The notes under the pieces were generated by a model. The model made no database searches, was not told the DNA's origin, and saw nothing but the letters and a program-made list of their open reading frames with translations. A program made the translations under genes and the position numbers. 64,000 nt of DNA from Catenulispora acidiphila DSM 44928. Lineage in GTDB: Bacteria; Actinomycetota; Actinomycetes; Streptomycetales; Catenulisporaceae. The DNA is taken from contig NC_013131.1 of assembly GCF_000024025.1 (NCBI RefSeq), positions 2,790,001 through 2,854,000 of the forward strand. Reading direction: 5' to 3'. This document shows, one piece after another, positions 17,750 to 40,204 of the stretch. Position 1 is the stretch's first letter, and each line of letters begins with the position of its first letter.

Positions 17750-18544
17750 TCAGTGCTCGGCGAGGAAGTCCAGCACCACCGGACCGGCGACGTCGCGGAA
17801 CTCGTCGAAGTACGCGTGCCGAGCACCCTCGATCAGCACCATCCGCGCGTCCGGAATCCGTTCGGTGATCAGCGGTGCGTTGGCTGTCGGGTTGAACACG
17901 TCGTCGGTGCCGTGCACCACCAAGGTCGGCGCGGCGATCGTCGGCAGCACGTCCCAGGCGTCGTGCTTGCCGCTCGCCGTCAGGTGACGCCCCTTCGCGT
18001 AGGCGGGCATCTCCGGATCGCCGACCACGTAATAAGGGCCCTGATGCGATGCCAGCCAATCCGGCGTGTACATCAGCTCCAGCAGATACCGGTCCGCCGC
18101 AACGCGATCAGAGCTCGCCAGCGCCTGCCGCACCGAGCGGTCCCGCTCGACCGCGTGCGCGCCGCCCGGCGACGTGCAGCCCAGCACGAGTGCCCCGACC
18201 CGCTCCGGGAAGTCGGCGGCCAGCCACTGCGCGACCCGGCCACCCATCGACGTGCCGTAGACCCGCGCCCGCGCGATGCCCAGATCGTCGAGCACCGCCA
18301 CGACGTCCGTCGCGAAATCCCTGGTGCTGTAAGGCTCGTCGGGCTTGTCACTACCTCCGGTGCCACGCCAGTCCAGCGTGATGGTGCGGTGGCCCGCGTC
18401 CTGGAAGGCGGCGCGCGCCGAGTCCCACCAGCGGTGGGTGTTGGACTGTCCGGCGAGCAGCACCAGCGGCGTTCCGCTGCCGGCGCTCTGGTACGCGATT
18501 GCGGTTCCGTCCGCCGCGGTCGCCTTCCCGGCCTCTAGTGTCAT
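17750..18544 (-). CDS. Alpha/beta hydrolase
   Basis: The 264-residue protein (start ATG 18544; AGAGG nine bases upstream; a second ATG at 18553 is possible) has the alpha/beta-hydrolase core: HG-type oxyanion region LVLLAGQSNTHRWWD, DWRGTGGSDKP, nucleophile elbow GTSMGGRVAQ, catalytic Asp in VVHGTDDVFNP and His in EGARHAYFDEF. Length and order suit small-molecule esterases, haloalkane/epoxide hydrolase-like or 3-oxoadipate lactonase-like enzymes; the substrate is unknown. It diverges from glcD with starts only 29 bp apart, so the two promoters overlap. Confidence 0.82.
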   Translation of the reverse strand: MTLEAGKATAADGTAIAYQSAGSGTPLVLLAGQSNTHRWWDSARAAFQDAGHRTITLDWRGTGGSDKPDEPYSTRDFATDVVAVLDDLGIARARVYGTSMGGRVAQWLAADFPERVGALVLGCTSPGGAHAVERDRSVRQALASSDRVAADRYLLELMYTPDWLASHQGPYYVVGDPEMPAYAKGRHLTASGKHDAWDVLPTIAAPTLVVHGTDDVFNPTANAPLITERIPDARMVLIEGARHAYFDEFRDVAGPVVLDFLAEH

Positions 18545-18573
18545 GCCGATCATCCTCTGCCAGGCTAGGGACC

Positions 18574-26112: not shown

Positions 26113-26159
26113 CAGGACTCCTCATTGCTGCGGCTTGTGAGCGACCCCGCAGGGTGGAG

Positions 26160-26200
26160 CGTGGACTAGACCATTGGAGACGTCAAGGGACTAGACCAGT
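26160..26200. promoter_or_regulatory. Two DasR-like (dre) sites in the chitinase promoter
   Basis: Two 16-mers, CGTGGACTAGACCATT (26160-26175) and AAGGGACTAGACCAGT (26185-26200), are 25 bp apart and agree with the remembered DasR consensus ACTGGTCTAGACCAGT at 12 and 13 positions. They are also direct repeats, a known feature of streptomycete chitinase promoters. TTGACG (reverse strand, 26186-26181) between them could be a -35 box. Confidence 0.7.
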
Positions 26201-26510
26201 TACGTCGTGAGGCAAGGGTTCTGCCGCCCGGAACGAGGTGATTTGGCTGCTGTGGCTCCTGCGGAACCTTCGGGGAGCACAGCCGTGTGTCCTGCCCCAC
26301 ATTCGCCAGGCCGGGCTACTTCGGTCTCCGATAGTTCTCGGGGGCTTTTACCTAACGCCGCTGGTCCCGCTGCTCGACGATTCGGCGCCCGCTCGCTCGC
26401 CGCCCAGGTGAGACCGGGTCGCTCAACGCGTCCCCTTGACCGCTCCAGCAGGTCCGCCCTACAGTTCCCGCGATGTTACATCGATGAACGATGCAAGAAG
26501 GACGGTCGGC
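26201..26510. other. Intergenic region between chitinase promoter and ROK gene
   Basis: No gene is supported here. Near its end a palindrome CGATG-TTA-CATCG (26471-26483) sits 27 bp before the GTG start of the ROK gene and could be that regulator's operator; an alternative ATG (26484) begins right after it. Confidence 0.5.
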
Positions 26511-27701
26511 GTGACCCAGCTCCGGTTCACCCAGAAGGGGACCAAAAGTTCCCTTCGCGCGCGCAACGATGTACTGGTGCTCCAGTGCGTCGCCGCGGGT
26601 GAGGGCCGGTTCTCGCGCACCGACGTGATCCGGGAGACCGGGCTGCCGACCGCCACGGTCTCGGAGATCGTCGGCGACCTCATCGAGCGCCGGCTGGTCC
26701 GCGAGACCGGACGCGAGGCGCAGCCGGTCGGCAAGCCGCGCGTGCTGCTCGATCTGGACGACACCCACCACCGGTTCATCGGCGTGCAGGTGGCCAACGA
26801 GCGGATCACCGCGAGCCGCTTCACCCTCAACGGCCACATGGAGCAGACCGAGACCGTCTCGCGCCCCCTGGACGCCCCGGCGCTGACCGCCGTGTCGGAC
26901 ATGGTGCGCCGCATGGGCGCTCCCACGCCGGGCCGGATCACCGGGGTCGGCGTCGCGGTGCCCGGCATCGTCGGCGACGACGGCGTGATCCGCGAGGCCG
27001 TGAACTACGGCTGGCACATGGTGTCGATGGGCCATGAGCTCTCAGAGCTCGTCGACGGCCTGCACGTCCATGTGATCAACGACGCCAACGCCGTGGCGCT
27101 GTCCGAGGTCGCGCTGGTCGCCGACCGGGACAAGACGGTGGCGGTCCTGTGGATCGGCACCGGCATCGGCGCCGGCATCGTGCTCGACGGCCGGCTCTAC
27201 CACGGCGGCAACTTCCGCAGCGGCGAGATCGGCCACATCGACATCGGCACCTCGCTGCGCTGTCGCTGTGGACTGATCGGCTGCCTGGAGACCGTCGCGG
27301 CGCAGCCCATCATCCTCGGCGACGCCACCGAGCGCGCCGTCGCCAGCTACCTGGCCGGCGGCGACGACCAGGACGCCCGCGCCCTCGGCGAACGCGTGAA
27401 CCGCGCCGCCCGCGAGGTGGCGCGCCTGCTGTCCACCCTGGCCGGGACCCTGGACGTCACCGAGTTCATCCTCGGCGGCCCGATCGCCGGCGACCCCCTC
27501 GGCCCGCCGCTGATGCGCGAGGTCAACGACCTGCTGGCGCTGCGCGTCATGTCAGGCTTCGAGCAACTCGTCCTGCGCGCCTCCACACTCGGCACACACA
27601 GCCTGGTGTTCGGCGCGGCAGCCCACGCCATCCGCCAGGAACTCGGCGTCGTGATCACCATGCCCGCCGGTGCGGACGAGGCCGGTGATAACGCGGCCTA
27701 G
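26511..27701 (+). CDS. ROK-family transcriptional regulator
   Basis: From GTG 26511 (AAGGACG upstream) the 396-residue protein has an N-terminal winged helix (VAAGEGRFSRTDVIRETGLPTATVSEIVGDLIERRLV), then a ROK domain: VINDANAVALSEV, WIGTGIGAGIVLDG, the GEIGH motif and the zinc site CRCGLIGCLE near residue 248. The first ATP-binding motif of ROK sugar kinases (DIGGT) is not conserved (GVQVANERIT), so it is a regulator without kinase function. ROK regulators of actinobacteria sense sugars or GlcNAc derivatives. Being divergent from a chitinase with DasR-like sites suggests amino-sugar control; the ligand is inferred. Confidence 0.87.
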   Translation: MTQLRFTQKGTKSSLRARNDVLVLQCVAAGEGRFSRTDVIRETGLPTATVSEIVGDLIERRLVRETGREAQPVGKPRVLLDLDDTHHRFIGVQVANERITASRFTLNGHMEQTETVSRPLDAPALTAVSDMVRRMGAPTPGRITGVGVAVPGIVGDDGVIREAVNYGWHMVSMGHELSELVDGLHVHVINDANAVALSEVALVADRDKTVAVLWIGTGIGAGIVLDGRLYHGGNFRSGEIGHIDIGTSLRCRCGLIGCLETVAAQPIILGDATERAVASYLAGGDDQDARALGERVNRAAREVARLLSTLAGTLDVTEFILGGPIAGDPLGPPLMREVNDLLALRVMSGFEQLVLRASTLGTHSLVFGAAAHAIRQELGVVITMPAGADEAGDNAA

Positions 27702-27764
27702 CCAGGAGAGCCCACCCACCGCCCACCCGACCGCGTCCATCCCCACCGGACGCCCCAGACGGTG

Positions 27765-27910
27765 TCGCCCCGCATTCCTGAGCCGGAGCGACGCCACCCG
27801 GTGCCGCCCCGAATTCCTGAGCCGGGGCGACCCCGCGGACGCCGTCCCGCATTCCTGAGCCGGGACAGCGCCCGACCAGCGCCGCCCCGAATCCTGAGCC
27901 GGGGCGGCGC
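27765..27910. terminator. Four tandem covarying hairpins between convergent genes
   Basis: Four units share the loop ATTCCTGAG or AATCCTGAG and have stems GCCCCG/CGGAGC (27767-27789), CGCCCCG/CGGGGCG (27805-27829), GTCCCG/CGGGAC (27844-27866) and an 11-bp perfect GCGCCGCCCCG/CGGGGCGGCGC (27879-27910). The change C to T in the third left arm is matched by G to A in its right arm. They lie between the ROK and AraC gene ends, so a bidirectional terminator or RNA-stabilising array is likely. Confidence 0.75.
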
Positions 27911-27969
27911 TTGGTTTTGGGGGAGCGGGGAGCTTGGGTGAAAGGCGCCCTAAGCCGCCCTAAGCCGCC

Positions 27970-28938
27970 CTAAGCCGCCTCCGCGACCTCCCGCCGATAC
28001 CGCCCCGGCGCGATCCCGAACTCGCGCTTGAACGCTTTCGCGAAGGCGAACTCCGAGGCGTATCCGACGCGCTGCGCCACAGTACTCAGCGGTGCGTCGG
28101 ATTCGCGCAGCATGCGGCCGGCGATCGTCATGCGCCACCAGGTCAGGTAAGTCAGCGGCGGCTCACCGACCAGGGCCGTGAACCGTTGCGCGAACGCCGA
28201 GCGACTCAGACCCGCGCGGTCGCCGAGTTCTGCGACGGTCCAGGCGCGGCCCGGGTCGTCGTGCAGGTCTGTCAGGGCGCTGCTGATCGCGGGGTCGGTC
28301 AGTGCGCCCGGCCAGCCCAGCGCTGTGATGGTGCGTGCGGTGTCCGTGCCTGCGGTGTCCGTGCGTGCGGGGTCGGCGCGGGCCGAGCGCTCGATCCAGC
28401 CGCGCAGGATCAGCAGGAGCAGCGCGTCGACCAGCGCCGGTACCACGCCGTCCTGTCCCGGCTGCGCGTGCTCCAGCTCCGCGCCGAGCAGCGTGACCGT
28501 GGCGGCCAGGCCCGGCGTCTCGTCGGCGCGCAGGAGCAGCAGATCCGGTAGTTCCGCCAGCAGCGGATGCGGCCGCGTTCGTCCCAGCTGATACGCCCCG
28601 CACAGCAGCAGCGAGCGCTCCCCGCTGCCCTCGACGTCCACCCGCCCGATCGTCTGCCCCGGGCGCCAGCCCGCCGGCCGGAAGTCCTGCAGCGGCGTCG
28701 CCGGGTCGTCGGCGAGCGCGACCGAGTTCCCGTGCCGCACCAGCGTCACCTCCCCGACCGCCATCTCCACCGGCTCCCCGCTCGGCGGCAGCAGCCAGCA
28801 CCGGCCGCGCAGCAGCACGTGGAACGCCGTCCCGCCGATCGCCCCGAACCGCAAGCCCCACGGCGCGCGCACCTCGGTCCGCGCCGAGCGCGTCTGTCCG
28901 GAGCGCATCGCGGTGAGGGCGTCGGTGAGTACGTCCAT
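27970..28938 (-). CDS. AraC-family regulator with cupin-like sensor domain
   Basis: The 322-residue protein starts at ATG 28938 (MDVLTDALTAMRSG). Residues 1-190 form a cupin-like sensor (HVLLRGRCWLLPPSGEPVEMAVGEVTLVRHGNSVALADD), the type found in AraC proteins annotated cupin_6. The C-terminus has two HTH motifs, WTVAELGDRAGLSRSAFAQRF and APLSTVAQRVGYASEFAFAKAFKREFGIAPGRYR. A Thr/Asp/Ala repeat (ARADPARTDTAGTDTARTIT) in the linker reflects a short DNA repeat. It is divergent from an NmrA-type reductase gene with 142 bp between starts, and such AraC genes often activate the neighbouring oxidoreductase gene. Confidence 0.88.
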   Translation of the reverse strand: MDVLTDALTAMRSGQTRSARTEVRAPWGLRFGAIGGTAFHVLLRGRCWLLPPSGEPVEMAVGEVTLVRHGNSVALADDPATPLQDFRPAGWRPGQTIGRVDVEGSGERSLLLCGAYQLGRTRPHPLLAELPDLLLLRADETPGLAATVTLLGAELEHAQPGQDGVVPALVDALLLLILRGWIERSARADPARTDTAGTDTARTITALGWPGALTDPAISSALTDLHDDPGRAWTVAELGDRAGLSRSAFAQRFTALVGEPPLTYLTWWRMTIAGRMLRESDAPLSTVAQRVGYASEFAFAKAFKREFGIAPGRYRREVAEAA

Positions 28939-29080
28939 ACGCCCGATGCTAGCGCGCAGCCGGACGATCGGACATGTTTTCAGGACTCGACGACATTCAT
29001 CATCCGCAGCTGCCGCCCTACCGTTGAAGACATCAACCACAGCAACGGACTCAGACCGCAACCTCAGGGAGCTGATGACA

Positions 29081-29947
29081 ATGGCCATCCTCGTGATCGG
29101 CGCGACCGGCAAGACCGGCCGACCCGTGGTGGACGCCCTCGCCGCACGCGGTGCGAAGGTCGCCGCCGCCAGCCGCAATCCCGAAGCCGGACGCGAACTC
29201 CCCGACGGCGTCACGCCGGTCCGCTTCGACTGGGCCGACCGCACCACCTGGACCTCGGCCCTGGAGGGCGCCGAAGCCCTCTACATCGTCGGTCCCTACG
29301 CCCACCCCACCGGCGAGCGCCTTGTCGCCGACCTGCTCGCCGAAGCCCACGACACCCACCGCGTCGTCCTGCTGTCGGTGATCGGCGCCGAGCTGCTGCC
29401 GGTCGAGGCGATGATGGCGCACTGGGAGCGCGCCGTCCGCGCCTCCGGCAAGGAGTGGACCATCCTGCACCCGAACTGGTTCTTCCAGAACTTCGGTACC
29501 GGATTCCTCCCCTCCCTGCGTGATCGCGGCGTCCTGCAACTCCCCGCCGGCGACGCCCCAGTGAGCTTCGTCGACACCCGCGACATCGGCGAGGTCGCCG
29601 CCGCGGCGCTGACCGAGGACGGCTACGCCGGCCAGGTGCTCACCATCACCGGACCCGACAGCCTGTCCCACGGCGAAGCCGTCGCGATGCTGAGCGAAGC
29701 CTCCGGCCGTCCCCTGGCCTACAAGCCCGTCGAGCCTGAGCAGGCGGAGGCGAACTCCCGCGCGGCAGGCGTGAGCGAGCGCACCATCATCGCCCAGCGC
29801 GGTCTGTTCCAGGTCATCCGCGACGGCGGGAACGCCCCGGTGACCGACGTCGTCCAGCGCGTCACCGGCCACGCGCCGCGCAGCTTCGCGCAGTACGCCG
29901 CCGAGCACGCCGACCTCTGGCGCGACGCCACGAACTCAACGAACTAG
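29081..29947 (+). CDS. NmrA-like NAD(P)-binding reductase
   Basis: The 288-residue protein (ATG 29081, AGGGAG nine bases upstream; ATG 29075 is an alternative) has the Rossmann motif ILVIGATGKTGRPVVDAL, the ALYIVGPYAHPTGER segment, and a substrate-side WTILHPNWFFQNF stretch of the NmrA/atypical SDR family. Members are quinone reductases (QorB-like), azoreductases or redox sensors. Divergent from an AraC regulator with which it may form a regulated pair. The stop codon lies in a 15-bp direct repeat that belongs to the next gene's promoter. Confidence 0.82.
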   Translation: MAILVIGATGKTGRPVVDALAARGAKVAAASRNPEAGRELPDGVTPVRFDWADRTTWTSALEGAEALYIVGPYAHPTGERLVADLLAEAHDTHRVVLLSVIGAELLPVEAMMAHWERAVRASGKEWTILHPNWFFQNFGTGFLPSLRDRGVLQLPAGDAPVSFVDTRDIGEVAAAALTEDGYAGQVLTITGPDSLSHGEAVAMLSEASGRPLAYKPVEPEQAEANSRAAGVSERTIIAQRGLFQVIRDGGNAPVTDVVQRVTGHAPRSFAQYAAEHADLWRDATNSTN

Positions 29948-29987
29948 TACAAACGAGATTGCCACTAGTTCAAACAAGCGATACCCT
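29943..29987 (+). promoter_or_regulatory. Direct-repeat operator and leaderless promoter of the GNAT gene
   Basis: ACTAGTACAAACGAG (29943-29957) and ACTAGTTCAAACAAG (29964-29978) are 21 bp apart, two helical turns. TACCCT (29982-29987) fits a -10 box and is 7 nt before ATG 29995. The repeats cover the expected -35 zone, so a regulator could act there. Confidence 0.6.
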
Positions 29988-29994
29988 CGCGATC

Positions 29995-30588
29995 ATGACA
30001 GCGAAGACCCCCGCGCCGATCACCCTCACCGGGTCCCACATCCGACTGGAACCCCTGTCCCGCAGCCACCTCCCGGACCTCTTCGCGGCCGGCGGCAACG
30101 ACGACGCGGTCTGGCAGTGGCAGGGCGGCCCGACGCCCCGCACCGAGCAGGAACTCGGCGCGAAGCTGGACAAGATCGTCGGCAACGCCTCCTACGTCGC
30201 CTTCGCCGTCATCCTGCTCAGCACCGGCAAGGCCATCGGCTGGACCACCTTCAGCGACATCAGCGCCGTCGACGAGCGCCTGGAGATCGGCTGGACCTGG
30301 TACGGCAGCGCCTACTGGCGCTCGGCGGTGAACACCGAAGCCAAGCTCCTGCTTCTCGTCCACGCCTTCGAGGACCTCGGCATGGGCCGCGTGCAGTGGA
30401 AGACCGACCACATGAACCAGCGTTCGCAAAACGCCATCGCCCGCCTCGGCGCGCAGCGCGAAGGCGTCCTGCGCCGGCACCGGATGCGGCCGGACGGGAC
30501 GTTCCGCGACAGCGTCTACTTCTCGATGCTCGCCGAGGAGTGGCCGGCGGCCAAGCAGCGTCTCACCGAGCGGCTGGCGCGCGGCTGA
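29995..30588 (+). CDS. GNAT-family N-acetyltransferase (RimJ/RimL-like)
   Basis: The 197-residue protein has the GNAT arrangement seen in ribosomal-protein-type acetyltransferases: an N-terminal GSHIRLEPLSRSHLPDLF, a beta strand KAIGWTTFSDISAVDERLEIGWTWYG (motif A region with substrate cleft), and NTEAKLLLLVHAFEDLGMGRVQWKTDHMNQRSQNAIARLGAQREGVLRRH, the hallmark of the Acetyltransf_3 group. It transfers acetyl from acetyl-CoA to an amine; the target is unknown. The gene probably makes a leaderless mRNA and is followed by a terminator. Confidence 0.87.
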   Translation: MTAKTPAPITLTGSHIRLEPLSRSHLPDLFAAGGNDDAVWQWQGGPTPRTEQELGAKLDKIVGNASYVAFAVILLSTGKAIGWTTFSDISAVDERLEIGWTWYGSAYWRSAVNTEAKLLLLVHAFEDLGMGRVQWKTDHMNQRSQNAIARLGAQREGVLRRHRMRPDGTFRDSVYFSMLAEEWPAAKQRLTERLARG

Positions 30589-30609
30589 CGACAGCCGGAA
30601 GCATCGCCT

Positions 30610-30642
30610 GCGGTCCGCCGTCCACGGGGGATGGCGGACCGC
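30610..30642 (+). terminator. Hairpin terminator after the GNAT gene
   Basis: GCGGTCCGCC (30610-30619) and GGCGGACCGC (30633-30642) form a perfect 10-bp stem with a 13-nt loop, 21 bp past the stop, followed by a pyrimidine-rich TCCTCGTTCTCCTCTC. Confidence 0.75.
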
Positions 30643-30707
30643 TCCTCGTTCTCCTCTCGCCGTTAGGGTGAAGGCGCCCACCGACGATCAGGACATCAGG
30701 GGAGACC

Positions 30708-31931
30708 ATGACCGCCACGCCGGCTCACGCCGAGAGCGAGACGGCCGATGGGCGCGCCGCCGGCGGGCAGGCCGCCCCGCGCCGGGTGACCACCCTGGAG
30801 CTGTTCTTCGACCTGGTCTTCGTGTTCACCGTCACGCAGCTGACCGTCCTGCTCGCCGACGACCTGTCCTTCGCTCAGGTCGGCCGCGTGCTCCTGATCT
30901 TCGCGGTGCTGTATTGGATGTACGGCGCCTACGCCTACCTGACCAACCAGGTGCCCCCGGAGAACCTCGCGCGCCGCGTGGTCCTGATGATGGGCATGTT
31001 CGGCTTCCTCACCTGCGCGCTCGCGATCCCGAAGGTCTTCTCCGTGGACGGCGTCGCCTTCGGTCTGGCTTTCCTGTTGGTGACAGCCGTCCACAGCGCC
31101 CTGTACGCCCTGATCCACCGCAAGTACGTCCTCAGCTTCGCCGTCCCGAACCTCGCCGCGGCGGGCTGCGTCACGGCCGCCGGCGCCGTGAAAGGGGGCG
31201 CCGCCGACCTGCTCTGGCTGGCCGCCGTCCTGCTGCAGCAGCTCGCGCCGATCGTCTCCAGCCGGATCTCCGGCGACTACGAGGACGGCCGCGCGCCGGT
31301 CACCGAGAACGTCGGCGACCTGGACCCCGCGCACTTCGTCGAGCGCCACGGCCTGCTGCTGATCATCGTCTTCGGGGAGTCGGTGGTGGCGATCGGCGCC
31401 GGCGCCGCCGGGATCCGGCTCGACTGGGGTCTGGCCGGCGGGATCGCGCTGGCGCTCGCGCTGGCCGTCACCCTGTGGTGGACCTACTTCGGGCACGACG
31501 AATCCGCCGCCGAACACGCCCTGGCCGCCGTCTCCGGCATCCGCCGCTTCCGCCTCGGGATGCGCGCCTACTACTACAGCTTCGTCCCGATGCTGCTCGG
31601 CATCGCGATCCTCGCCGCCGGGCTCAAGAAAGCCGTCGGGCATCTGGGCGAGGAGTTGCCGGCCTCCGCCGCGGTCGCGCTCGCCGGCGGCGTCGCGGTT
31701 TTCCTCCTAGGTGATCTCTGTTTCCGGTTGAGCCTGCGGATTTCTCCCATGTTCTTCAGGAGCGTCGGCGCGGCGGCCGTCCTCGCCACGATTCCGCTGG
31801 CAGGCGCTTCGGCGGCGGCGGAACTTCTCGGGCTCACCGTTGTCATGGTCCTGATGCTGGTCGCTGAGGACGGCGCGCGGCGCCGTCAGCGCCGGGGCAC
31901 ATCGTCACACGGAGAGTCGATCACCCATTGA
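30708..31931 (+). CDS. LtrA-family membrane protein
   Basis: The 407-residue protein has about ten membrane helices and the family signature TTLELFFDLVFVFTVTQLT near the N-terminus, an AVLYWMYGAYAYLTNQ helix, HFVERHGLLLIIVFGESVVAIG and a WWTYF helix. This is the low-temperature-requirement A family, widely present in actinobacteria with no proven function; the conserved acidic FFDLVFVF and ERHGL..GES motifs suggest a transport or ion-handling role. It ends 69 bp before the lanthipeptide precursor gene on the same strand. I see no evidence that it exports the peptide. Confidence 0.85.
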   Translation: MTATPAHAESETADGRAAGGQAAPRRVTTLELFFDLVFVFTVTQLTVLLADDLSFAQVGRVLLIFAVLYWMYGAYAYLTNQVPPENLARRVVLMMGMFGFLTCALAIPKVFSVDGVAFGLAFLLVTAVHSALYALIHRKYVLSFAVPNLAAAGCVTAAGAVKGGAADLLWLAAVLLQQLAPIVSSRISGDYEDGRAPVTENVGDLDPAHFVERHGLLLIIVFGESVVAIGAGAAGIRLDWGLAGGIALALALAVTLWWTYFGHDESAAEHALAAVSGIRRFRLGMRAYYYSFVPMLLGIAILAAGLKKAVGHLGEELPASAAVALAGGVAVFLLGDLCFRLSLRISPMFFRSVGAAAVLATIPLAGASAAAELLGLTVVMVLMLVAEDGARRRQRRGTSSHGESITH

Positions 31932-32000
31932 CGCCCGCCCCGAGGGCGGTTAGACAGGGCAGAGTCCGAGCATCGGACGCCTCTCATAAGGAGCGCGAAG

Positions 32001-32168
32001 ATGAACGAACTGCTCGAGTTGGAGCCACGCGAGACCGATGCCGACGAGCTCGACGTGGACACCGCCTTCAGCGGGATCGCCGACGCCTCTCGGGACCACA
32101 GCCAGTGTCTGCACTGCTGCGGTGAGGACGTCAGCCACTGGTTCTTCGCGACCAGCATCCCCTGGTAG
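32001..32168 (+). CDS. lanA: Lanthipeptide precursor peptide (class III/IV)
   Basis: This 55-codon gene has AAGGAG seven bases before its ATG. The leader starts MNELLELEPRETDADELD; LLELEPRE resembles the ILELQDLE leader motif that class III synthetases recognise. The C-terminal half holds candidate modified residues Ser30, Ser34, Ser45, Thr51 and Ser52 and Cys36, Cys39, Cys40, followed by an aromatic tail HWFFATSIPW. There is no Ser-x2-Ser-x3-Cys labionin pattern, so ordinary lanthionine rings (for example Ser34-Cys39) are more likely. The synthetase gene follows after 86 bp on the same strand. No protease or dedicated ABC transporter is adjacent. Confidence 0.82.
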   Translation: MNELLELEPRETDADELDVDTAFSGIADASRDHSQCLHCCGEDVSHWFFATSIPW

Positions 32169-32254
32169 TCCCTGACCGATCAGCGCTGGGGGCGACCCGC
32201 GTCAGGACTGACGGCGACACGGCAACACAGCACCACGAAAGAAGGACGTTCGAT

Positions 32255-34897
32255 ATGAACGGCGGGCTGTCGCCGCAGGACGTGGAGCACCTGATCCGAA
32301 AACACGCCGCCCAGGCCGGTGTCGAGATCGGGCTCAAGGAAGGCACCACCTGGCTGGGCGTCCGCCCGCCGGGTGCGCGTGTGATGGAACAAGGCTGGAA
32401 GCTGCACATCTCCAGCCGGACCGGCGCCCTGGCCGAGACCGCCGAGGTGATCGTGCCGGCGCTGCTGGCCGAGGGCTGCGCGTTCAAGATGGCCGGCTCC
32501 ACCGACGCCCTGGCCCGGCTCAACGACGGCACCACCACGCCGTCCTCGATCGGCAAGGCGTTCACCGTCTATCCCGACCAGGACCGCGTCCGCGCCGTGG
32601 GGCTGATGCTCGCGCACCTCTTACGCGGCCGGGCGGCGCCGCGCGTGCTCAGCGACCGCCGCGTGGCCGCCGACGCCCCGGTCTACTACCGCTACGGACC
32701 CATCGACAAGCCGTGGGGCGCCGACGCCCAAGGCAAGCTGGTCATGACCCTGACCGGCCCGGACGGCGAGGAGTTCCCGGCGCTGGCGACCCTGCGCTAC
32801 CGCCAGCCGACCTGGGCCGTGGACCCGTTCACCGGCGAGCCCGGTGCGCGGGACTGGGAACGCTCCCCGAACCACTCCACCCGGCTCGGCGACCACTACG
32901 AGGTCGACGCCGGCATCGTGCACGCCGGCCGCGGCGACGTGATGCGCGCCGTGGACGTCCGCGACGGCAGCCGCGTCATCGTCAAGCAGTCGCGGGCGCT
33001 GGTGGACGAAGGCGAGGACGGCGTCGACACCCGGCTGCGCGTCCGCAACGAGCGCCGCGTGCTGGCCGTTCTGGAGGGCGTGGACGGCGTGGCAGGGTAC
33101 GTCGACCACTTCCGCGCCGGCACCGACGAGTTCCTGGTGACCCGCGACGTGGGCCGCAGCAACCTCGCCGACGACGTGATGGAGAACGGCCGCTATCCCG
33201 CGGCCGCCGCCCCCGAAGCGGTCCCCGGCCGCACGCTGGAACAGCTCGCGCGGCAAATGGCGACCATCATCCTGGCGGTGCACGAACGCGGCGTCCTGAT
33301 CCGCGACCTGAACCCGCGCAACGTGGTCGTCGCCCCGGACGGCAGCGCCAAGCTGATCGACCTGGGACTGGCCGGACACAACGGCCTGTATCTGCCCGGC
33401 GGCACCTCCGGCTACTCCAGCGCCCGGCAGTTCCGGCACCAGGACGCCACGACCGGCGACGACCTCCTGGCCCTCGGCACGACCCTGTGCTACGCCTGGT
33501 CGGCGCTGCCCGCGGTCGTCCTGAGCCGCGACGTGGACGAGCCGCGCCGCATCGCCTTACGCATGATCCGAGCACGCTGCGGTGAAGCCCCGGGCGGAGT
33601 CCTGGGGCTGATCTGTGATCTGCTCAGCATGGACGACGACCGCGTGCAGGAAGCGGCGCGGCGCATGGCCGCCGGGCACTTCTCCGCCGCCCGCCGCACC
33701 CGCACCGCGCTCCCGGCCTCCGCGCCGGTGACCGACGCGCTGATCGACGAGATCGGCGCGAACCTGCTCAGCGACCTGACGAACCAGACCCGCAGGATCC
33801 TGACCGAGGTCCCGCGCACCGAACAGGTCGGCGTGGACGGCTGCGTCTACCGAGGCGGCGCCGGCATCGGCCTGGAGCTGCTGGAACACCTGGAGACCCC
33901 GGGTGTGTCCGACCTCGTCGCCGACCTGGTCCCGTTCAGCCGGCGCGGCGCCGAGGTGGTCCGGCTGGGACCGGGACTGTGGACCGGACGCACCGGACTC
34001 GACGTGTTCCGGCTCACCGCCGCCCGGCGCCTGACACCCGGCGTCGTGGCCCGCGCCGACCCCGAGGCGAAACCCTGCGACGTCGAAATCCTCGACCACG
34101 ACTGGAAACCGGAATACTCCGACCTGATCAGCGGCGCCTCCGGTATCGGACTCGGCCACCTGCTCCTGCGCGACCTCGACGGACGCCCCGAGCACCTGGA
34201 CACCGCCCGGCTGTGCGCCGAGCACGTCCTGGCCAACACCATGCCCGACCCCGGATCCGAGCCCGGTCTGCTCGGCGACACCTCAGGGGTCGAGATTTCC
34301 GCCGCCCGCGGACACGGCCTGGCCGGCACGGTCGACGCGCTCGCCGTCATCGGCACCCACCTGGCCGACGACACCATCCTCATCGGCGCCGACGAGCGCG
34401 CCCGCGAACTCGTCCGGCGGGCCGACCGGCTCGCCGCGCAGTCTGTCCGGCCCACGACCGCACCGCTGGCCGCGTCCTGGTGCCAGGGCCTGGCCGGGAT
34501 CGTCACCAGCCTGCTGACCGCGGGGGAGTACCTGAACGACAGCACCTACACCGACGCCGCACGCCGCACCGCCGACGCCTGTATCGCGCTCATCCCGCGC
34601 ATGGACAAGCCGACGCAGTGCTGCGGCCTGTCCGGGATCGGCAACATGCTGATCGACATCGCCGGCCGGGACGGCGACGAGCGGTACCGGGAGGCGGCGC
34701 GCGCGGTCGTGGCACAACTGCTCGTGCGCAGCGCCGGCCCGGCCGGCCACCCGGTCTTCGTCCGCGACCACCCCGGCGAGTACAGCGCCTCCTGGGCGTA
34801 CGGCGTCGCCGGGATCCTGAGCTTCTTCCGGCGCCTCTCCCGCGGCGGTGGACCGATGGCTCTGGCGGTCAGCTCCTCGCTGTCCTGCGTCCACTGA
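32255..34897 (+). CDS. lanL: Three-domain lanthipeptide synthetase (LanL/LanKC) with CCG zinc motif
   Basis: The 880-residue protein has a lyase domain (about 1-200: QGWKLHISS near 45, CAFKMAGSTDALARLNDG, SSIGKAFTVYP, VYYRYGPI), a kinase domain (about 205-470: RVIVKQS, catalytic RDLNPRN near 349, DLGLA near 368) and a LanC-like cyclase (about 500-880). The kinase phosphorylates Ser/Thr of the precursor, the lyase eliminates phosphate, and the cyclase adds Cys thiols. Zinc-ligand positions are present as SWCQG (about 742) and QCCGLSG (about 788), unlike typical class III enzymes that lack ligands; the second motif is CCG instead of the usual CHG. This suggests class IV-like LanL with three-Cys zinc. 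GAAGGA precedes the ATG. Confidence 0.9.
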   Translation: MNGGLSPQDVEHLIRKHAAQAGVEIGLKEGTTWLGVRPPGARVMEQGWKLHISSRTGALAETAEVIVPALLAEGCAFKMAGSTDALARLNDGTTTPSSIGKAFTVYPDQDRVRAVGLMLAHLLRGRAAPRVLSDRRVAADAPVYYRYGPIDKPWGADAQGKLVMTLTGPDGEEFPALATLRYRQPTWAVDPFTGEPGARDWERSPNHSTRLGDHYEVDAGIVHAGRGDVMRAVDVRDGSRVIVKQSRALVDEGEDGVDTRLRVRNERRVLAVLEGVDGVAGYVDHFRAGTDEFLVTRDVGRSNLADDVMENGRYPAAAAPEAVPGRTLEQLARQMATIILAVHERGVLIRDLNPRNVVVAPDGSAKLIDLGLAGHNGLYLPGGTSGYSSARQFRHQDATTGDDLLALGTTLCYAWSALPAVVLSRDVDEPRRIALRMIRARCGEAPGGVLGLICDLLSMDDDRVQEAARRMAAGHFSAARRTRTALPASAPVTDALIDEIGANLLSDLTNQTRRILTEVPRTEQVGVDGCVYRGGAGIGLELLEHLETPGVSDLVADLVPFSRRGAEVVRLGPGLWTGRTGLDVFRLTAARRLTPGVVARADPEAKPCDVEILDHDWKPEYSDLISGASGIGLGHLLLRDLDGRPEHLDTARLCAEHVLANTMPDPGSEPGLLGDTSGVEISAARGHGLAGTVDALAVIGTHLADDTILIGADERARELVRRADRLAAQSVRPTTAPLAASWCQGLAGIVTSLLTAGEYLNDSTYTDAARRTADACIALIPRMDKPTQCCGLSGIGNMLIDIAGRDGDERYREAARAVVAQLLVRSAGPAGHPVFVRDHPGEYSASWAYGVAGILSFFRRLSRGGGPMALAVSSSLSCVH

Positions 34898-36350
34898 TCA
34901 GGACCTCCATGCCGAGGTGCTCCTTGACCAGGGTGCGCAGGCGCGGGCCGTCGATCAGCGTGATGCGCCCGACCTCGGCGGCGAAGGCGTAGCTGGCCGG
35001 ACCGAAGGACGAGGTGGTGACGACCAGGCCGGTGTAGGCCTTCTTCTCCTGCATCGTGCCGTACAGGGCGCGCACCGCCTCGACCGGCACGGTGTGGGAG
35101 TAGCGCTTGGCCTGGATGACGCAGACGCCGCCGATGGCGATGTCGTCGCGGACCGCCACCGCGTCGACGCCGCCGTCGCGGCTGTCCGGGGTCTTCCAGG
35201 CCTTGAAGCCCATGGCGAGGAACAGGTCGCGGATGAGGCGTTCGAAGTCGTAGGGGTCCATCGTGGCGAGGTCCAGCCCGGTCGCTGTCTCGTTGCGGCG
35301 GTCCCGCTCTTGGTCGGGATCGATGAAGGGGAGCACCGGCTCCAGGCCGTAGGCGTCGTCGGACAGCCGCGCGTTCAGATGGCGCAGGCACGACACCGGG
35401 TCCAGGCGCGGCTCGTCCAGCGCGACGCGTTCGAAGACGCTGCGCTCCACCACGAGGCTGACCAGACAGGGCCGTACCGGCTGTCCGGTCGCCGGATCGG
35501 TGCCGCGGACGTGGCCGTTGACGGCGATGACGTCGACTGTCTCCGGCGCGGTGACGGCGGCTGCGTAGTCGGCGACGCAGAGCGCAAGGCGCGCGACAGC
35601 ATCCTGATAAATGCGCTGGATCTCTGATGCGCGCCGGGGGATCGCGACGATTTCGCCTTGCGCTGCTACGTATCGAAACGCCTTGTCGGTCGGTATGCCT
35701 TCGGTGCGCGGCAGATCGACGGCGACGGTCAGCCGGTGGGCGTCGGGGGAGTAGGTCACTTCGGGGTGCGCGTGTTTCAGGAACGAGCGCTCGGCGAGGA
35801 TTTCCGCGACGCGATCGGCGAAGCTCTGCTCGTCGCCTTCTCTCAGGGCGGCGCTGGAATCCGCGCGCAGCGGCTCCAGTTCGCGATCGCGATTCGTCAG
35901 GACGCTGCCGATCGCTTGGACGCGGTGCTCGAGTTTCTGGGTGCGTTCCGCCGCCTCGTCTTTGAGCTGTTGCAGAGCCTGATTTTTCTGCCCGCGCGCG
36001 GCATCCCGTTCCCGCGCCAGGGCTTCGCGCGCCTCAGCCTGCTGACGTAGCGTCTCGCGCTTCTCCATCTCCCGAAGGACCTGCTGCACCTGCTTGGCGT
36101 CAGCCGCCTGCTGTCGCTTGGCCATGTCCTCCGCCGCACGCTGCGCCTGCCGCGCAGCCGCGTCCTCCCGGCGCGCTGCCGCTCGCTTCTCCTTCTCCTG
36201 CTCCGCCTTGGCTGCCTTCTCCACCGCCGCCTTGTGCGCCGCCCTGCGCTGCTGCGCCTCGAAGAGCTGCTGCGCGACACTCTTCGGCTTCGACCCCGCC
36301 ACGAGGCTTCCCTCCCCATTGAAGAACCCTGCGATACCCGTCATGGTCAT
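34869..36350 (-). CDS. Coiled-coil protein with Mrr-type restriction endonuclease domain
   Basis: The product (493 residues from ATG 36350; 36344 is also possible) has a long charged coiled coil at about residues 20-150 rich in Ala, Glu, Lys and Gln, a middle region of unknown type, and a C-terminal PD-(D/E)xK nuclease domain: FERLIRDLFLAMGFKAW near 368, GGVDAVAV near 393 with the metal Asp, and VIQAKRYSHTVP near 412 with the Gln-x-Lys pair. Mrr_cat proteins cut modified or foreign DNA. It is head-to-head with a gene for a small helical protein, with start codons overlapping, and its end overlaps the lanthipeptide synthetase gene by 29 bp. A defence or cell-death role is inferred. Confidence 0.85.
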   Translation of the reverse strand: MTMTGIAGFFNGEGSLVAGSKPKSVAQQLFEAQQRRAAHKAAVEKAAKAEQEKEKRAAARREDAAARQAQRAAEDMAKRQQAADAKQVQQVLREMEKRETLRQQAEAREALARERDAARGQKNQALQQLKDEAAERTQKLEHRVQAIGSVLTNRDRELEPLRADSSAALREGDEQSFADRVAEILAERSFLKHAHPEVTYSPDAHRLTVAVDLPRTEGIPTDKAFRYVAAQGEIVAIPRRASEIQRIYQDAVARLALCVADYAAAVTAPETVDVIAVNGHVRGTDPATGQPVRPCLVSLVVERSVFERVALDEPRLDPVSCLRHLNARLSDDAYGLEPVLPFIDPDQERDRRNETATGLDLATMDPYDFERLIRDLFLAMGFKAWKTPDSRDGGVDAVAVRDDIAIGGVCVIQAKRYSHTVPVEAVRALYGTMQEKKAYTGLVVTTSSFGPASYAFAAEVGRITLIDGPRLRTLVKEHLGMEVLISGRRTARS

Positions 36351-36354
36351 ACCC

Positions 36355-36813
36355 ATGGACCTGTCGACGTTGCTGCTTCCCGGCGCCCAGAACCTCGCCA
36401 CCGCCATGCTCTCCGACGCCTGGACCGCCACTCGCGACGCCGTCGCGCGCCGTTGGGGGCGCGGCGACCACGCCGCGACCAAGCAGGCAGCGGCCGAACT
36501 CGATGATTCCCGTACCCAGGCGCTGGCGTTGTTCCCCGCTTCCGCCGGCGTCGACGCCGTCGTGCCCGCCGCCGCCGACCCGGCGCTGCTGCAGGCGTTC
36601 CTCGCCGGCTACCTCGCCGCGCTGGCCCGTACCGATCCGGGGCGGCTGCCGGCGCTGTTCTCGCTCACGGCGCAGCCCGGGCAGCAGGCCGCCGCCGCTG
36701 CGGCGCGCAATGTGAACTACGGCGAGGTGGAACGGCTCGTGCAGGTCGACGCGGAGAGCATCGACAAGCTCGTGCAGATCGACGGCGACGTCCAAGGCGG
36801 CTTCCACATGTGA
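36355..36813 (+). CDS. Small helical protein with C-terminal amyloid-signalling-like motif
   Basis: The 152-residue protein has a mostly helical N-terminal region (MDLSTLLLPGAQNLATAMLSD, then DAWTATRDAVARRWGRGD and AAAELDDSRTQALALF) and a helical middle, then a C-terminal tail with two related pieces, GEVERLVQVDAE and DKLVQIDGDVQGGFHM. The last resembles short actinobacterial amyloid-forming signalling motifs (VQAGxVxGGxH type) found at the C-termini of helical, possibly membrane-active Bell-domain effectors and at the N-termini of NLR-like receptors. Its ATG overlaps the start region of the divergent nuclease gene. Function is not established; the motif assignment is my reading, not a database result. 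Confidence 0.6.
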   Translation: MDLSTLLLPGAQNLATAMLSDAWTATRDAVARRWGRGDHAATKQAAAELDDSRTQALALFPASAGVDAVVPAAADPALLQAFLAGYLAALARTDPGRLPALFSLTAQPGQQAAAAAARNVNYGEVERLVQVDAESIDKLVQIDGDVQGGFHM

Positions 36814-36933
36814 CGGCGGGGCGGCGGTGACCCTGCTGGCGGCATCCGGCGCCCTTACAATGGCGACCAGCGAAACGCAGCGATACGGCGCCCAACCGAC
36901 GCACCCGGCGACCGGCGACATCAGGGGTGGGAC

Positions 36934-37695
36934 ATGTACGCGGAGGAGCGCCAGCAGGCCATCTTGGCGAAGGCGCGGGCGCACGGGCGGGTCGACGTCG
37001 TGGGGCTCGCCGAGGAGCTGGCGGTCACCACCGAGACCATCCGGCGCGACCTGACGGTGCTGGAGCGCGCCGGGGTCGTGCGGCGCGTGCACGGCGGCGC
37101 GATCCCGGTCGAGCGCCTCGGATTCGAACCGGGCGTGGCGGCGCGGGACGCGGTGATGACCGCGGAGAAGGAGCGGATCGCCAAGGCCGCGCTCGCCGAG
37201 CTGCCCGAGGAGGGCTCGGTCATCATCGACGCCGGGACCACGACCGGGCGCCTGATCGAGATCCTGCCGGTGGACCGGGAACTGACCGTCATCGTCAACG
37301 CGCCGGCCTTCGCCGCACAGCTGGCGACCAGATCCAATCTCACGGTCCTGATGCTCGGCGGGCGCATCCGCGGCCGCACCATGGCGGCGGTCGACGACTG
37401 GGCTCTGGCTCCGCTGTCGCAGCTGTGCGTGGACGTCGCCTTCGTGGCGACCAACGGCGTCTCGGTCGGGCGCGGGCTCACCACCCCCGACATCACCGAG
37501 GCCGCGGTGAAGCGCGCGATGATCGGCGCGGCGCGGCGCACCGTGCTGCTCGCCGACCACAGCAAGGTCGGCAACGACTGCATGGCGCGCTTCGGCGGAC
37601 TGGCCGACGTCGACCTGTTCATCACCGACACCGGACTGGACGAGGAGACCGCCGGGGAGTTCGGCGACGCGGGCATCCGGGTGATGCGTACCTAG
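36934..37695 (+). CDS. DeoR/GlpR-family transcriptional repressor
   Basis: The 253-residue protein has the DeoR N-terminal helix-turn-helix (MYAEERQQAILAKARAHGRVDVVGLAEELAVTTETIRRDLTVLERAGVVRRVHGGA) and a DeoR C-terminal sugar-phosphate sensor domain (IIDAGTTTGRLIEIL, TVIVNAPAFA, GGRIRGRTMA, FVATNGVS, LLADHSKVG). The family represses sugar-catabolic operons, often fructose or glycerol. A consensus-like TACAAT box (36856-36861) lies upstream with a leader of about 65 nt. No sugar kinase or PTS gene is adjacent, so its target is elsewhere or distant. The stop region is followed by a cluster of CCTAG repeats. Confidence 0.9.
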   Translation: MYAEERQQAILAKARAHGRVDVVGLAEELAVTTETIRRDLTVLERAGVVRRVHGGAIPVERLGFEPGVAARDAVMTAEKERIAKAALAELPEEGSVIIDAGTTTGRLIEILPVDRELTVIVNAPAFAAQLATRSNLTVLMLGGRIRGRTMAAVDDWALAPLSQLCVDVAFVATNGVSVGRGLTTPDITEAAVKRAMIGAARRTVLLADHSKVGNDCMARFGGLADVDLFITDTGLDEETAGEFGDAGIRVMRT

Positions 37696-37733
37696 GCGCA
37701 CCTAGCTTTATCTAGCCGTACCTAGGCGTATCG
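37684..37733. repeat. CCTAGG-type short repeats
   Basis: GTACCTAGGCG occurs twice (starting near 37687 and 37718), with ACCTAGC and TCTAGCC copies between, across the DeoR stop codon. It is a short degenerate repeat of unknown meaning between convergent genes. Confidence 0.55.
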
Positions 37734-37735
37734 CC

Positions 37736-38533
37736 TCACCAGGGCAGGCGCTGCCAAGGGCTGTCCGCCTTGCTCAGCAACGACTTCCCGCTGCTTGTGT
37801 ACCTCCGGTAGTCGGCGCTGACCTCCTGCGCGTCGAACGTGCCGTTGCACTGCCAGAAGACCCGCCCGGCCAGGAAGCCGAGCTGGAACTCCTCCCACGA
37901 CGGATACTCCGGCAGCACCATCCGCGCCGCCGCGTCGATCGCCGCCCACGCCTCGTCCGCGGGCAGGTACCCGGCGTCGACGATGAAGCGGCTCACGTGC
38001 ACCACGCGCGCGGCGTCCCAAGCGGCGATGCTCTCGATGATCCGCCGCGGGTAGTGCCCCTGCATCATCGCCCGCGACGGCCACGCCGACTGGAAGTAGT
38101 TCAACGCCACATCTGGCCGCTCACCGCGCTGCATCGCGATCGCCGGGATCTCCCGCGTCGCCTGCTCCACCCGGGCCCGCTCGTCGGCGCGGCTGAGGTC
38201 CCAGCCCGCGTTCAGGTAGCCGCGCACGCAGGCGTAGACATCGCGGTGCCCGCCCTCCTCGAGCAGGAAGCGGTAGGTGGCGCGCGCCGACTGGGCGTCA
38301 TAGACATCCCACGCCTGCTCCAAGACCTTCGCCGCGCTCTGCGGATCGGAGCCGGCCGTCAGGGCATTGATGGGCAGATCGTCGCCGACCGCGTACACCG
38401 CACCCAGCGCCAGCCCGCGCTCCTGCCGCGCAGTCAACGCGGGCGCATCGGGCAGCACCTTGAACCCGAAGTCGACCATGCTCCGCAACCTGCCCAAGAT
38501 GCCCACGGACGTTCCCCCTGCCATGCCGGACAC
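37736..38533 (-). CDS. DUF1266 domain protein
   Basis: The protein has up to 265 residues (GTG 38533; ATG 38524 gives MAGGTSVGIL and is equally possible). Its C-terminal two thirds match the DUF1266 pattern: WDAARVVHVSRFIVDAGYLPADEAWAAID, followed by YPSWEEFQLGFLAGRVFWQ. DUF1266 proteins (E. coli YbeR/YbeU-like) have no known activity and in many bacteria lie near toxins or polymorphic systems. No membrane segment or catalytic motif is visible. It is convergent with the DeoR gene and stands alone. Confidence 0.75.
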   Translation of the reverse strand: MSGMAGGTSVGILGRLRSMVDFGFKVLPDAPALTARQERGLALGAVYAVGDDLPINALTAGSDPQSAAKVLEQAWDVYDAQSARATYRFLLEEGGHRDVYACVRGYLNAGWDLSRADERARVEQATREIPAIAMQRGERPDVALNYFQSAWPSRAMMQGHYPRRIIESIAAWDAARVVHVSRFIVDAGYLPADEAWAAIDAAARMVLPEYPSWEEFQLGFLAGRVFWQCNGTFDAQEVSADYRRYTSSGKSLLSKADSPWQRLPW

Positions 38534-38661
38534 CCCGCCAAGCGGTCCCGGAACGTTCGTTCAGGCAGGTCGGGGCGATACTGGACAGGGGACCCTAACC
38601 CGCGCCACCGATCGGGCACACCGGCACAATTACCCGCAGGGACACCCCGCCCCGGGCATTT

Positions 38662-39378
38662 TCACCGCCCCCGCATCGCCTGCTCCACAATCGCATCCAG
38701 GCTCGCCGAATGCGCCCCACGCCAATAGGCATGACCGCAGGACTCGCACTCAGCGAAGGCGTCATAAGCCTTAGCAGTCCCGCTCTCCAACCGATCCCGC
38801 ATCTCTTCCTTCGCCACCGCCCGCAGCACACCGTTACATGCGGTACACCGCGTCCACGGCGCCAACACCGGCTGAAACCGATCAAGAATCTCATCCAGCT
38901 GCACCGCAGGCTTATGGCTGTAGACATAAGCACCAGCAAACAACTCCCGCCGATGCAACAACCCCCGATCCCGCGAAAGCATCACCCGCTGCTCCCGAGC
39001 CGACCAGGCCGCCAACGCCGCATCCCCCACATCAGGAGTCTCATACGCGGCATCAACCCCCAGCACCCGCAACCGCCGCGCCAACGTCCCCAAATGAACG
39101 TCCAGCAAAAACCGCAACGACCCCCCAACCCGCTGCGGAAAACCCAACTTCCGCACCTCCACCCGCTCCCCACTCACCGGCACATGCCCAACCCCCACAA
39201 CCCGCCCATCAACCACCAACTCCCCAACCTCAACCAACGGCACCCCCAGAGCCTCCACAACATGCCCCAGACTCGACACGCCATCAGTCGCAACCCCAGC
39301 CCCCACCCCACGGTTAGCCGCCGACACAAAGACATGCAACCCAGGGTCGAACGTAATACTGATCTCCACTTTCGCCAC
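38662..39378 (-). CDS. Mut7-C RNase-domain protein with ubiquitin-like N-terminus
   Basis: From GTG 39378 the 238-residue protein has an N-terminal ubiquitin-like (beta-grasp) domain (about 1-80: VEISITFDPGLHVFVS, then GHVVEALGVPLVEVGELVVDG), and a Mut7-C domain: LDVHLGTLARRLRVLGVDAAYE, the acidic strand QRVMLSRDRGLLHRR (PIN-like active site), and a terminal zinc ribbon with CTACNG and CESCGHAYWRG. This combination (Mut7-C ubiquitin plus Mut7-C) is a conserved bacterial architecture proposed to be an RNase. Substrates are unknown. The downstream (5') region is a minisatellite array rather than a normal promoter region. Confidence 0.85.
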   Translation of the reverse strand: MAKVEISITFDPGLHVFVSAANRGVGAGVATDGVSSLGHVVEALGVPLVEVGELVVDGRVVGVGHVPVSGERVEVRKLGFPQRVGGSLRFLLDVHLGTLARRLRVLGVDAAYETPDVGDAALAAWSAREQRVMLSRDRGLLHRRELFAGAYVYSHKPAVQLDEILDRFQPVLAPWTRCTACNGVLRAVAKEEMRDRLESGTAKAYDAFAECESCGHAYWRGAHSASLDAIVEQAMRGR

Positions 39379-39465
39379 CCGGCCAGCATGCCAGCGCCCA
39401 GATCACGCGACCACTGGATTGCCAGCCGCGGCAGCCGCCCCACACCTCCCCAGCACCAGCCACAC

Positions 39466-40204
39466 GCCACGGTCCAGCCGCCCGGCAGCGCTGCCAACGG
39501 CACCCCGCTGCTTCTCGCCGCTCAGCGTGCCACGATGCAGCCGCCCGGCAGTGCTGCTGACGCCCATCCCGCCGCTTCTGGCCACTCGCCGCGCCACGAT
39601 CCAACCGACCGGCATTGTTGCTGACGCCACCCCGCTACTTCTCGCGACTCGGCGCGCCACGATCCGGCCGGCCGACAGTGCTGCCGACGGCACCCCGCTA
39701 CTTCTCGCCACTCGGCGCGCTACGATCCAGCCGCCCGGCAGCGCTGCCGACGCCATCCCGCTGCTTCTCGCGACTCGCCGCGCCACAATCTGGCCGGCCG
39801 ACGGCACCCCACTACTTCTCGCCACTTGGCGCGCCATGATCCGGCTGCCCGGCAGCGCTGCCGACGGCGCCCCGCCACTTCTCGCCACTTGGCGCGCCAT
39901 GATCCGGCTGCCCGGCAGCGCTGCCGACGGCGCCCCACCACTTCTCGCCACTCGGCGCGCCACGATCCGGCCGCCCGGCGGTTTCGCGCGCGGCGGCCTG
40001 TGGCTGCTCGCCGCTCGGCGCGGACCATCGGCGGTCTGCTCGTGGCGCTCCCGCGGCTCCTTGCTGCTCAGCGCGCCATGATCTAGGCGACTGGCTGCTT
40101 TCGGCTTCTCGGTGCTCGGCGCGGACCATCGTCCAGCCGACCTGCGGTTCTTCGGCGCGGACCATCGTCCAGCCGATCCGTGGTTCTTCGGCGCGGCTGT
40201 CTGG
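39466..40204. repeat. 63-bp minisatellite array
   Basis: Units begin GCCACGATCC or GCCATGATCC at 39466, 39529, 39593, 39656, 39719, 39782, 39833, 39896 and 39959; steps are 63 bp except one of 64 and one of 51. Typical units contain the palindromes CGGCAGCGCTGCCG and GGCGCGCC. After 39959 the copies decay into shorter GGACCATCG units up to about 40204. Because 63 is a multiple of 3 both strands stay open, giving false 21-residue repeat proteins. No gene is supported. Confidence 0.93.

Follow-up and report, generated by a model that had tools for sequence, protein, structure and literature searches.

Probable class IV lanthipeptide system of the CCG type, with a new core peptide, in Catenulispora acidiphila and its congeners

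We analysed a stretch of 64,000 nucleotides from Catenulispora acidiphila DSM 44928 (contig NC_013131.1, positions 2,790,001 to 2,854,000; hereafter the window, with positions counted from its first letter), in which a short open reading frame (ORF) directly precedes the gene of a three-domain lanthionine synthetase. The locus is very probably a two-gene class IV lanthipeptide system of the CCG type, whose nearest solved relative is PDB 8car and whose rings would mostly be Cys-first, i.e., closed by a Cys lying ahead of its dehydrated partner. The type of enzyme is known, and the peptide has a new core, present in every Catenulispora genome examined (10).

The precursor gene (lanA-like; 32001..32168, + strand), identified by its ORF, its homologues and an analysis of selection, encodes the 55 residues MNELLELEPRETDADELDVDTAFSGIADASRDHSQCLHCCGEDVSHWFFATSIPW and is preceded by the ribosome binding site AAGGAG (31988..31993, +), 7 nt 5' of the ATG. 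The leader part, with LELEPRE and DTAF segments (LLELEPRE occupying residues 4–11), is of the type common to the CCG clade described below and would span approximately residues 1–33 (32001..32099, +), whereas the probable core, SQCLHCCGEDVSHWFFATSIPW (32100..32165, +), delimited by conservation in ten orthologues, holds Cys36, Cys39 and Cys40, then Ser45, Thr51 and Ser52, and an aromatic tail. The synthetase gene (32255..34897, +), classified by domains, models, PDB match and tree as a class IV lanthionine synthetase (LanL) of the CCG type, encodes 880 residues, on which Pfam places an N-terminal lyase domain (RamC_N, residues 27–199; 32333..32851, +), a kinase domain (residues 227–413; 32933..33493, +) and a LanC-like cyclase domain (residues 572–861; 33968..34837, +), in that order and with 150.7, 41.5 (Pkinase) and 69.6 bits (LANC_like), all above the Pfam cut-off. 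The cyclase carries WCQG at residues 742–745 and QCCG at residues 788–791. The gene positions, ribosome site, LLELEPRE, three Cys, aromatic tail and both cyclase motifs are as described in the original prediction, which had been made from the letters and ORFs of the window.

That observation is real, and the combination of synthetase and precursor is more than chance, because the synthetase occurs in 10/10 genomes of the genus, each with an intact homologous small ORF directly 5' of it; in the nine genomes other than that of the window, a protein search gave full-length matches of 72–89%. With all pairs of the ten precursors taken together, several of these being nearly identical, the proportions of synonymous (pS) and nonsynonymous (pN) differences were 0.276 and 0.100 (pN/pS 0.36), with pN/pS equal in leader and core, and judging from these ratios the precursor is under purifying selection. 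Upstream lies a promoter-like element (31928..31956, +) consisting of TTGACG (31928–31933), 17 bp and TAGACA (31951–31956), which shares bases with the stop codon of the LtrA gene 5' of it. Its two boxes are identical in all ten orthologous loci, in which the spacer sequence varies and the 17 bp spacing is kept, and it is the sole match to TTGACN-N16-18-TAGANN on both strands of the 64 kb. No RNA element in Rfam matched at gathering score within 26000–40000. Because the pair is genus-wide, pN/pS is low and the boxes are kept in all ten loci, we infer an inherited unit under selection that would have its own promoter-like start.

A LanL enzyme requires lyase, kinase and LanC-like domains in one polypeptide and an adjoining precursor with a Ser/Thr/Cys core, and both are found here. 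Against the NCBIfam models, the synthetase scores 629.1 bits for class IV, 290.9 for class III and 61 for LanM, and its best solved relative is PDB 8car, over residues 31–867 (E 4.8e-126); solved enzymes of class III are also among the matches of its lyase-kinase part. Residues K244, D351, N356 and D369 of the kinase, as well as D623, H687, C743, C789 and C790, are invariant in 13/13 aligned clade members.

Several points weigh against a class IV assignment with a zinc-binding cyclase. The score of 629.1 bits is 21 bits below the curated cut-off of the class IV model NF038150 (650), which is a naming threshold rather than a biological definition; among clade mates, the loci L045–L048 (L numbers denote the loci compared) score 740–825 on this model and L052 scores 621. 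Further, L050, which belongs to the ten motif-less rows of the tree described below and has no zinc motif of any kind, scores 652 bits, and therefore the class IV model score alone is not decisive. A structure model from six close orthologues was too poor to use (mean predicted local distance difference test score 46.9), and the alignment with NisC taken by itself is not significant (E 0.76), with the zinc position resting on MadC, 8car and Pfam.

When the cyclase domain was aligned with MadC by phmmer (E 3e-5), WC743QG fell on WCYG and C789-C790-G on CHG. With 8car, which we take to be a zinc-holding enzyme, the alignment is far stronger (E 4e-37) and shows CQG and CCG at the same columns, and LicM2 (E 0.0039), 3t33 (E 0.042) and NisC give these columns weakly. 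Hence, by alignment, Cys743 (34481..34483, +) stands in the column where LanC-type cyclases have their first zinc Cys, and Cys789-Cys790 (34619..34624, +) stand in the columns of the CHG ligands, with Cys for His. The ligands of NisC are Cys284, Cys330 and His331, and these are said to be shared by LanL (PMC9889658, excerpt), so the window enzyme differs from the LanL ligands of that excerpt in having Cys as the third. Judged by position, the three-Cys site is genuine, and zinc is the metal predicted for it. The original prediction that the synthetase is of LanL type and has three Cys in zinc positions, which hinged on where these Cys would fall in an alignment, is borne out by all three standing in ligand columns.

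A tree of 74 synthetase rows places all 46 CCG rows on one branch (Shimodaira–Hasegawa-like approximate likelihood ratio test, SH-aLRT, 100), the window synthetase among them together with PDB 8car. The class IV side is completed by the 18 CHG rows, of which 15 form one clade and three, on long branches (L049, L053 and L054), are weak sisters of the CCG rows (support 88). Ten rows without zinc motif, sorted by their lack of CCG or CHG and class III-like by inference, are set apart from the CCG/CHG side at SH-aLRT 100. The tree was built by a quick method with SH-aLRT support and no bootstrap, and omits copies of the window gene, which was entered once (L010, L011, L051), L001–L005 (same contigs as L015–L019), the near copies L013 and L015, L018 (contig end), L030 (broken frame), L091, L096 and L098 (same places as L048, L046 and L045) and L006–L008, which are other LanC-like genes of the window's own genome. 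CCG was also found in 30/30 loci L071–L100 and 30/30 loci L101–L130, a count biased by their choice as best matches of the window synthetase. One of these loci, L076 (genome G516), has a CCG-type LanL gene with two internal stop codons and is probably a decayed or misassembled copy. Because all 46 CCG rows form one clade, the three-Cys site is no local oddity; on this tree, it is the norm within its clade rather than a mixed or new feature of the window enzyme.

As to the core, Cys36 and Cys39 are invariant in the ten species and Cys40 is present in 8/10; a Ser or Thr is found at positions 44–45 and at 51 in 10/10, Ser52 in 8/10 and the final Pro-Trp in 10/10, with Ser/Thr34 in 9/10 and Ser30 in 5/10. 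More distant relatives keep CxxCC with a Ser or Thr four residues on (CVGCCEEHT in L021, CTHCCGDDS in L025). In the Catenulispora locus L020, the segment from Ser24 to Cys36 contains no further Ser or Thr, and the three Cys are followed by exactly three. For venezuelin, the product of a class IV enzyme, Cys-first rings were proposed from mass spectra, namely Cys34-Dhb39, five residues apart, Cys32-Dhb43 and Cys45-Dha49 (PMC2843593, excerpt; Dha, dehydroalanine; Dhb, dehydrobutyrine). Because of the arrangement in L020, the conservation among orthologues and the venezuelin precedent, Cys-first rings are favoured as probable, Cys40-Ser45 or Cys40-Ser52 among them, and two or three rings are plausible. 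L018 and L019 are without Cys40 and have Gly at 52, and since they are sisters (bootstrap 100, SH-aLRT 99), their tree indicates a single event in which Cys40 and Ser52 disappeared jointly.

Two points tell against this ring assignment: the co-loss happened a single time, on a single branch, and is thus weak evidence for that ring, and in the window species dehydration could also occur at Ser30 and Ser34, which precede Cys36. With the usual ring direction, Dha30 or Dha34 would pair with Cys36, Cys39 or Cys40, and Ser45, Thr51 and Ser52 would be open dehydro residues or unmodified. This alternative is unlikely but deserves weight, as a Ser or Thr at 34 lies ahead of Cys36 in 9/10 species; however, L020 has Ala at position 34, 5/10 species have Ala or Val at position 30, and the Ser/Thr at 44–45 and 51 are kept in all ten.

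Under the favoured Cys-first reading, the precursor would be transcribed from its own vegetative-type promoter, and its leader with LxLEPRE, which probably forms a short helix, would dock on the lyase-kinase part, as suggested by the class III structure. The kinase would then phosphorylate Ser and Thr of the core, the lyase would remove the phosphate to give Dha or Dhb, and the cyclase, with zinc held by Cys743, Cys789 and Cys790, would add the core Cys thiols to these residues. Such a kinase-lyase-cyclase mechanism is known for class IV enzymes; the catalytic positions in the window enzyme are those given by alignment alone. Rings would be mostly Cys-first because Cys36, Cys39 and Cys40 precede Ser45, Thr51 and Ser52, with three expected in eight of the ten species and two in the pair lacking Cys40 and Ser52, and export and leader removal would go through unlinked genes.

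We tentatively entertain a bolder version, possible rather than probable, in which a genus-wide CxxCC lanthipeptide has all of its rings Cys-first (Cys36/39/40 onto Ser45/Thr51/Ser52) in a globular, overlapping arrangement, and is the product of a LanL that has a three-Cys zinc site and a leader code of its own. If so, its retention in ten genomes without linked transporter or immunity genes would suit a developmental or surface role over that of an exchanged antibiotic. The locus also offers a clean two-gene class IV system, probably in a cultured strain, and ring direction in class IV enzymes could be tested with it because its ten natural orthologues vary at residues relevant to ring pairing.

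Among known systems, the closest is that of PDB 8car, which we take to be CuvL of the curvocidin pathway, a characterised LanL; locus L094 encodes the 8car chain (100% over 822 residues) with two precursors alongside, presumably curvocidin. The 8car/8cav system shares with the window pair its domains, [WF]CQG plus QCCG, its clade and the kinship of an EPRDAG leader; it differs in having two precursors instead of one, in a synthetase identity of 37%, and in its core SCTVCHWGRTVLCDDFSTQA, where Cys follows Thr as well, whereas all Cys come first in the window core. Catenulipeptin, which we believe to be the AciA/AciKC product of this same strain, C. acidiphila DSM 44928, belongs to class III and to another gene, not to the window pair. 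AciA/AciKC are named in PMC8960859 (excerpt). Unlike the window pair, none of the 18 CHG loci has a leader with [EQ]xR[DVE]. VenL is, we assume, of the CHG type. Like the window pair, the VenL/venezuelin system combines lyase, kinase and LanC domains with Cys-first rings as proposed and has no linked protease (PMC2843593, excerpt); its ven cluster has transport genes, whereas none was linked to the window pair among the ORFs scanned.

The original prediction had seen in CCG a mixed or ProcM-like feature, which is not supported, given that it is fixed in the 46 clade rows of the tree and that the whole-genome profile search described below gave a single such precursor. CCG would, on that reading, mark one promiscuous enzyme serving many scattered precursors, as it accompanies promiscuity in LanM enzymes (PMC10027976, PMC12328550, excerpts), and the ProcM-type class II LanM with CCG likewise has Cys for His in its zinc site (PMC10027976, excerpt), though with a different dehydratase, the window enzyme scoring merely 61 bits as LanM. 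We consider this very unlikely, because a profile of 15 precursors searched against the whole genome (a single contig of 10,467,782 bases; 150 of 260 first-look candidates scored) matched the window precursor only, at E 1.2e-25 with a cut-off of E 10, whereas ProcM-like systems have many precursors per enzyme. A whole-genome search for the DNA pattern of LxLEPR[DE] likewise gave no other precursor, with two further places found, one with an in-frame stop and the other inside a long unrelated frame. Further, of the 34 loci with a leader match, 32 have a single precursor, L094 has two, and L087 has one and a chance-like ORF. As to the number of precursors, the ProcM-like reading is not borne out by these searches.

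The leader was surveyed with a strict rule, under which an ORF had to have a Shine-Dalgarno-like start, carry [EQ]xR[DVE] within residues 1–25 (P, I, L, V, A or S being allowed at the second position) and possess a Cys further on. Small ORFs conforming to it adjoin 34/74 CCG loci (one locus enters this count twice, L116 and L047 being identical in place), 0/18 CHG loci and 0/10 loci without zinc motif. Of the 40 CCG loci without a match, 22 have a precursor in other scans (L012, L016, L020, L025–L029, L045, L046, L052, L092, L095, L105, L106, L108, L109, L112, L113, L118, L127 and L129), and at 18 no precursor was found in any scan (L071, L073, L100–L102, L104, L107, L111, L115, L119–L124, L126, L128 and L130). 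A looser scan, covering CCG loci only, found RDAGPLD..FED leaders at many Streptomycetaceae loci, and the L094 precursors beside the 8car gene, one starting MSALLEPRDAG and the other its sister, carry EPRDAG. The R[DVE] leader therefore appears to belong to the CCG clade, and class IV synthetases would divide into a CCG clade with such leaders and CHG enzymes without. The leader had been thought to look class III, a reading that the survey rejects because [EQ]xR[DVE] ORFs stand beside CCG loci, that of 8car included, and beside no CHG or motif-less locus; likeness to LELQL is not specific. That motif is required in the leader by the class III enzyme ThurKC (PMC10604976, excerpt), and LELE may, by analogy, serve the same helix role. 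Since the CCG clade has its own leader type, the leader may be used for finding precursors; these often lack annotation (in a 2020 mining study, 86% of those of class IV; PMC7268733, excerpt). A literature search on Catenulispora lanthipeptides and class IV LanL zinc did not find the locus, and the supplement of PMC7268733 may list the precursor. At L074 (~288–516) and L075 (~1118–1322), an EPR-leader precursor is divergent from the synthetase instead of upstream on the same strand, and at L071 and L073 (synthetase relatives, 48–49%) none was found within ~1.3–1.5 kb.

Labionin has the pattern Ser-xx-Ser-xxx-Cys, which is absent from some class III cores, and the precursor sequence shows none, as originally noted. 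It is scarcely credible that the pair is a class III system, with a LanKC-like enzyme making labionin or open dehydrated residues and with non-functional Cys at the zinc positions: LELE resembles the LELQL critical for ThurKC (PMC10604976, excerpt) and the solved class III enzymes match the lyase-kinase part, but the class III model score (291 bits) is far under that of class IV, the zinc-position Cys are invariant in 13/13 where a LanKC cyclase has no zinc ligands, rows without zinc motif branch off at SH-aLRT 100, and the labionin pattern is missing.

In the surroundings, Pfam was applied to 27 ORFs lying at 15.1 to 48.8 kb of the window, including the two of the pair; some of these ORFs are doubtful, and the survey covered part of the small ones. 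Upstream of the pair are GNAT and LtrA genes. The LtrA-family membrane protein (30708..31931, +; Pfam and locus comparison) is upstream in 7/7 Catenulispora loci checked (L001–L005, L068 and L069) and was not found near the relatives in genomes G004 or G009; for this absence, it is left as a neighbour and not counted as part of the system. Downstream, a convergent gene for an Mrr-type restriction endonuclease (34869–36482, − strand; Pfam) covers the last 29 bases of the synthetase gene; it was matched in L001 and L005 and not in L002 or L003, and the L004 sequence stops at the synthetase. For none of the 27 ORFs was the best match a peptidase family, although an alpha/beta hydrolase (17750–18589) also matches "Serine aminopeptidase, S33" (52.6 bits), and the nearest transporter family among them is that of an MFS protein (45696–47114), 10.8 kb off. 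The earlier statement that no transporter or protease of its own lies near stands for the ORFs put to Pfam, and because of the distance to the nearest scanned transporter family, export and leader removal probably proceed via unlinked genes. ARAGORN calls a tRNA-His at 16382–16475 (−), inside a GGDEF/EAL gene on the opposite strand (15141–17735); this tRNA call is probably a false positive.

A second CCG-type LanL occurs in other Catenulispora genomes, with no such match in the window's genome. Its precursor is long (172–304 residues), with 9–17 copies of N[VL]R[DE] units, followed in 4/5 cases by a second array of 14-residue SNKLLASADANRVV or SLAVNSDSP units, and ends in one short core such as ACLPNPYPTATTRFDCEL. 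The long precursors start at 916 in L026 (reverse complement), 837 in L027, 525 in L028 (= L070 9083–9997), 949 in L029 and 876 in L030, where the core is lost, each with GGAGG before the start and 13–21 nt 5' of the synthetase ORF. A literature search on repeated-leader precursors found nothing on point. Because NVRDA and LLAFED are reminiscent of the RDAG...FED leader, present as a single copy in Streptomyces relatives whose core is similar, the leader elements may be tandemly amplified.

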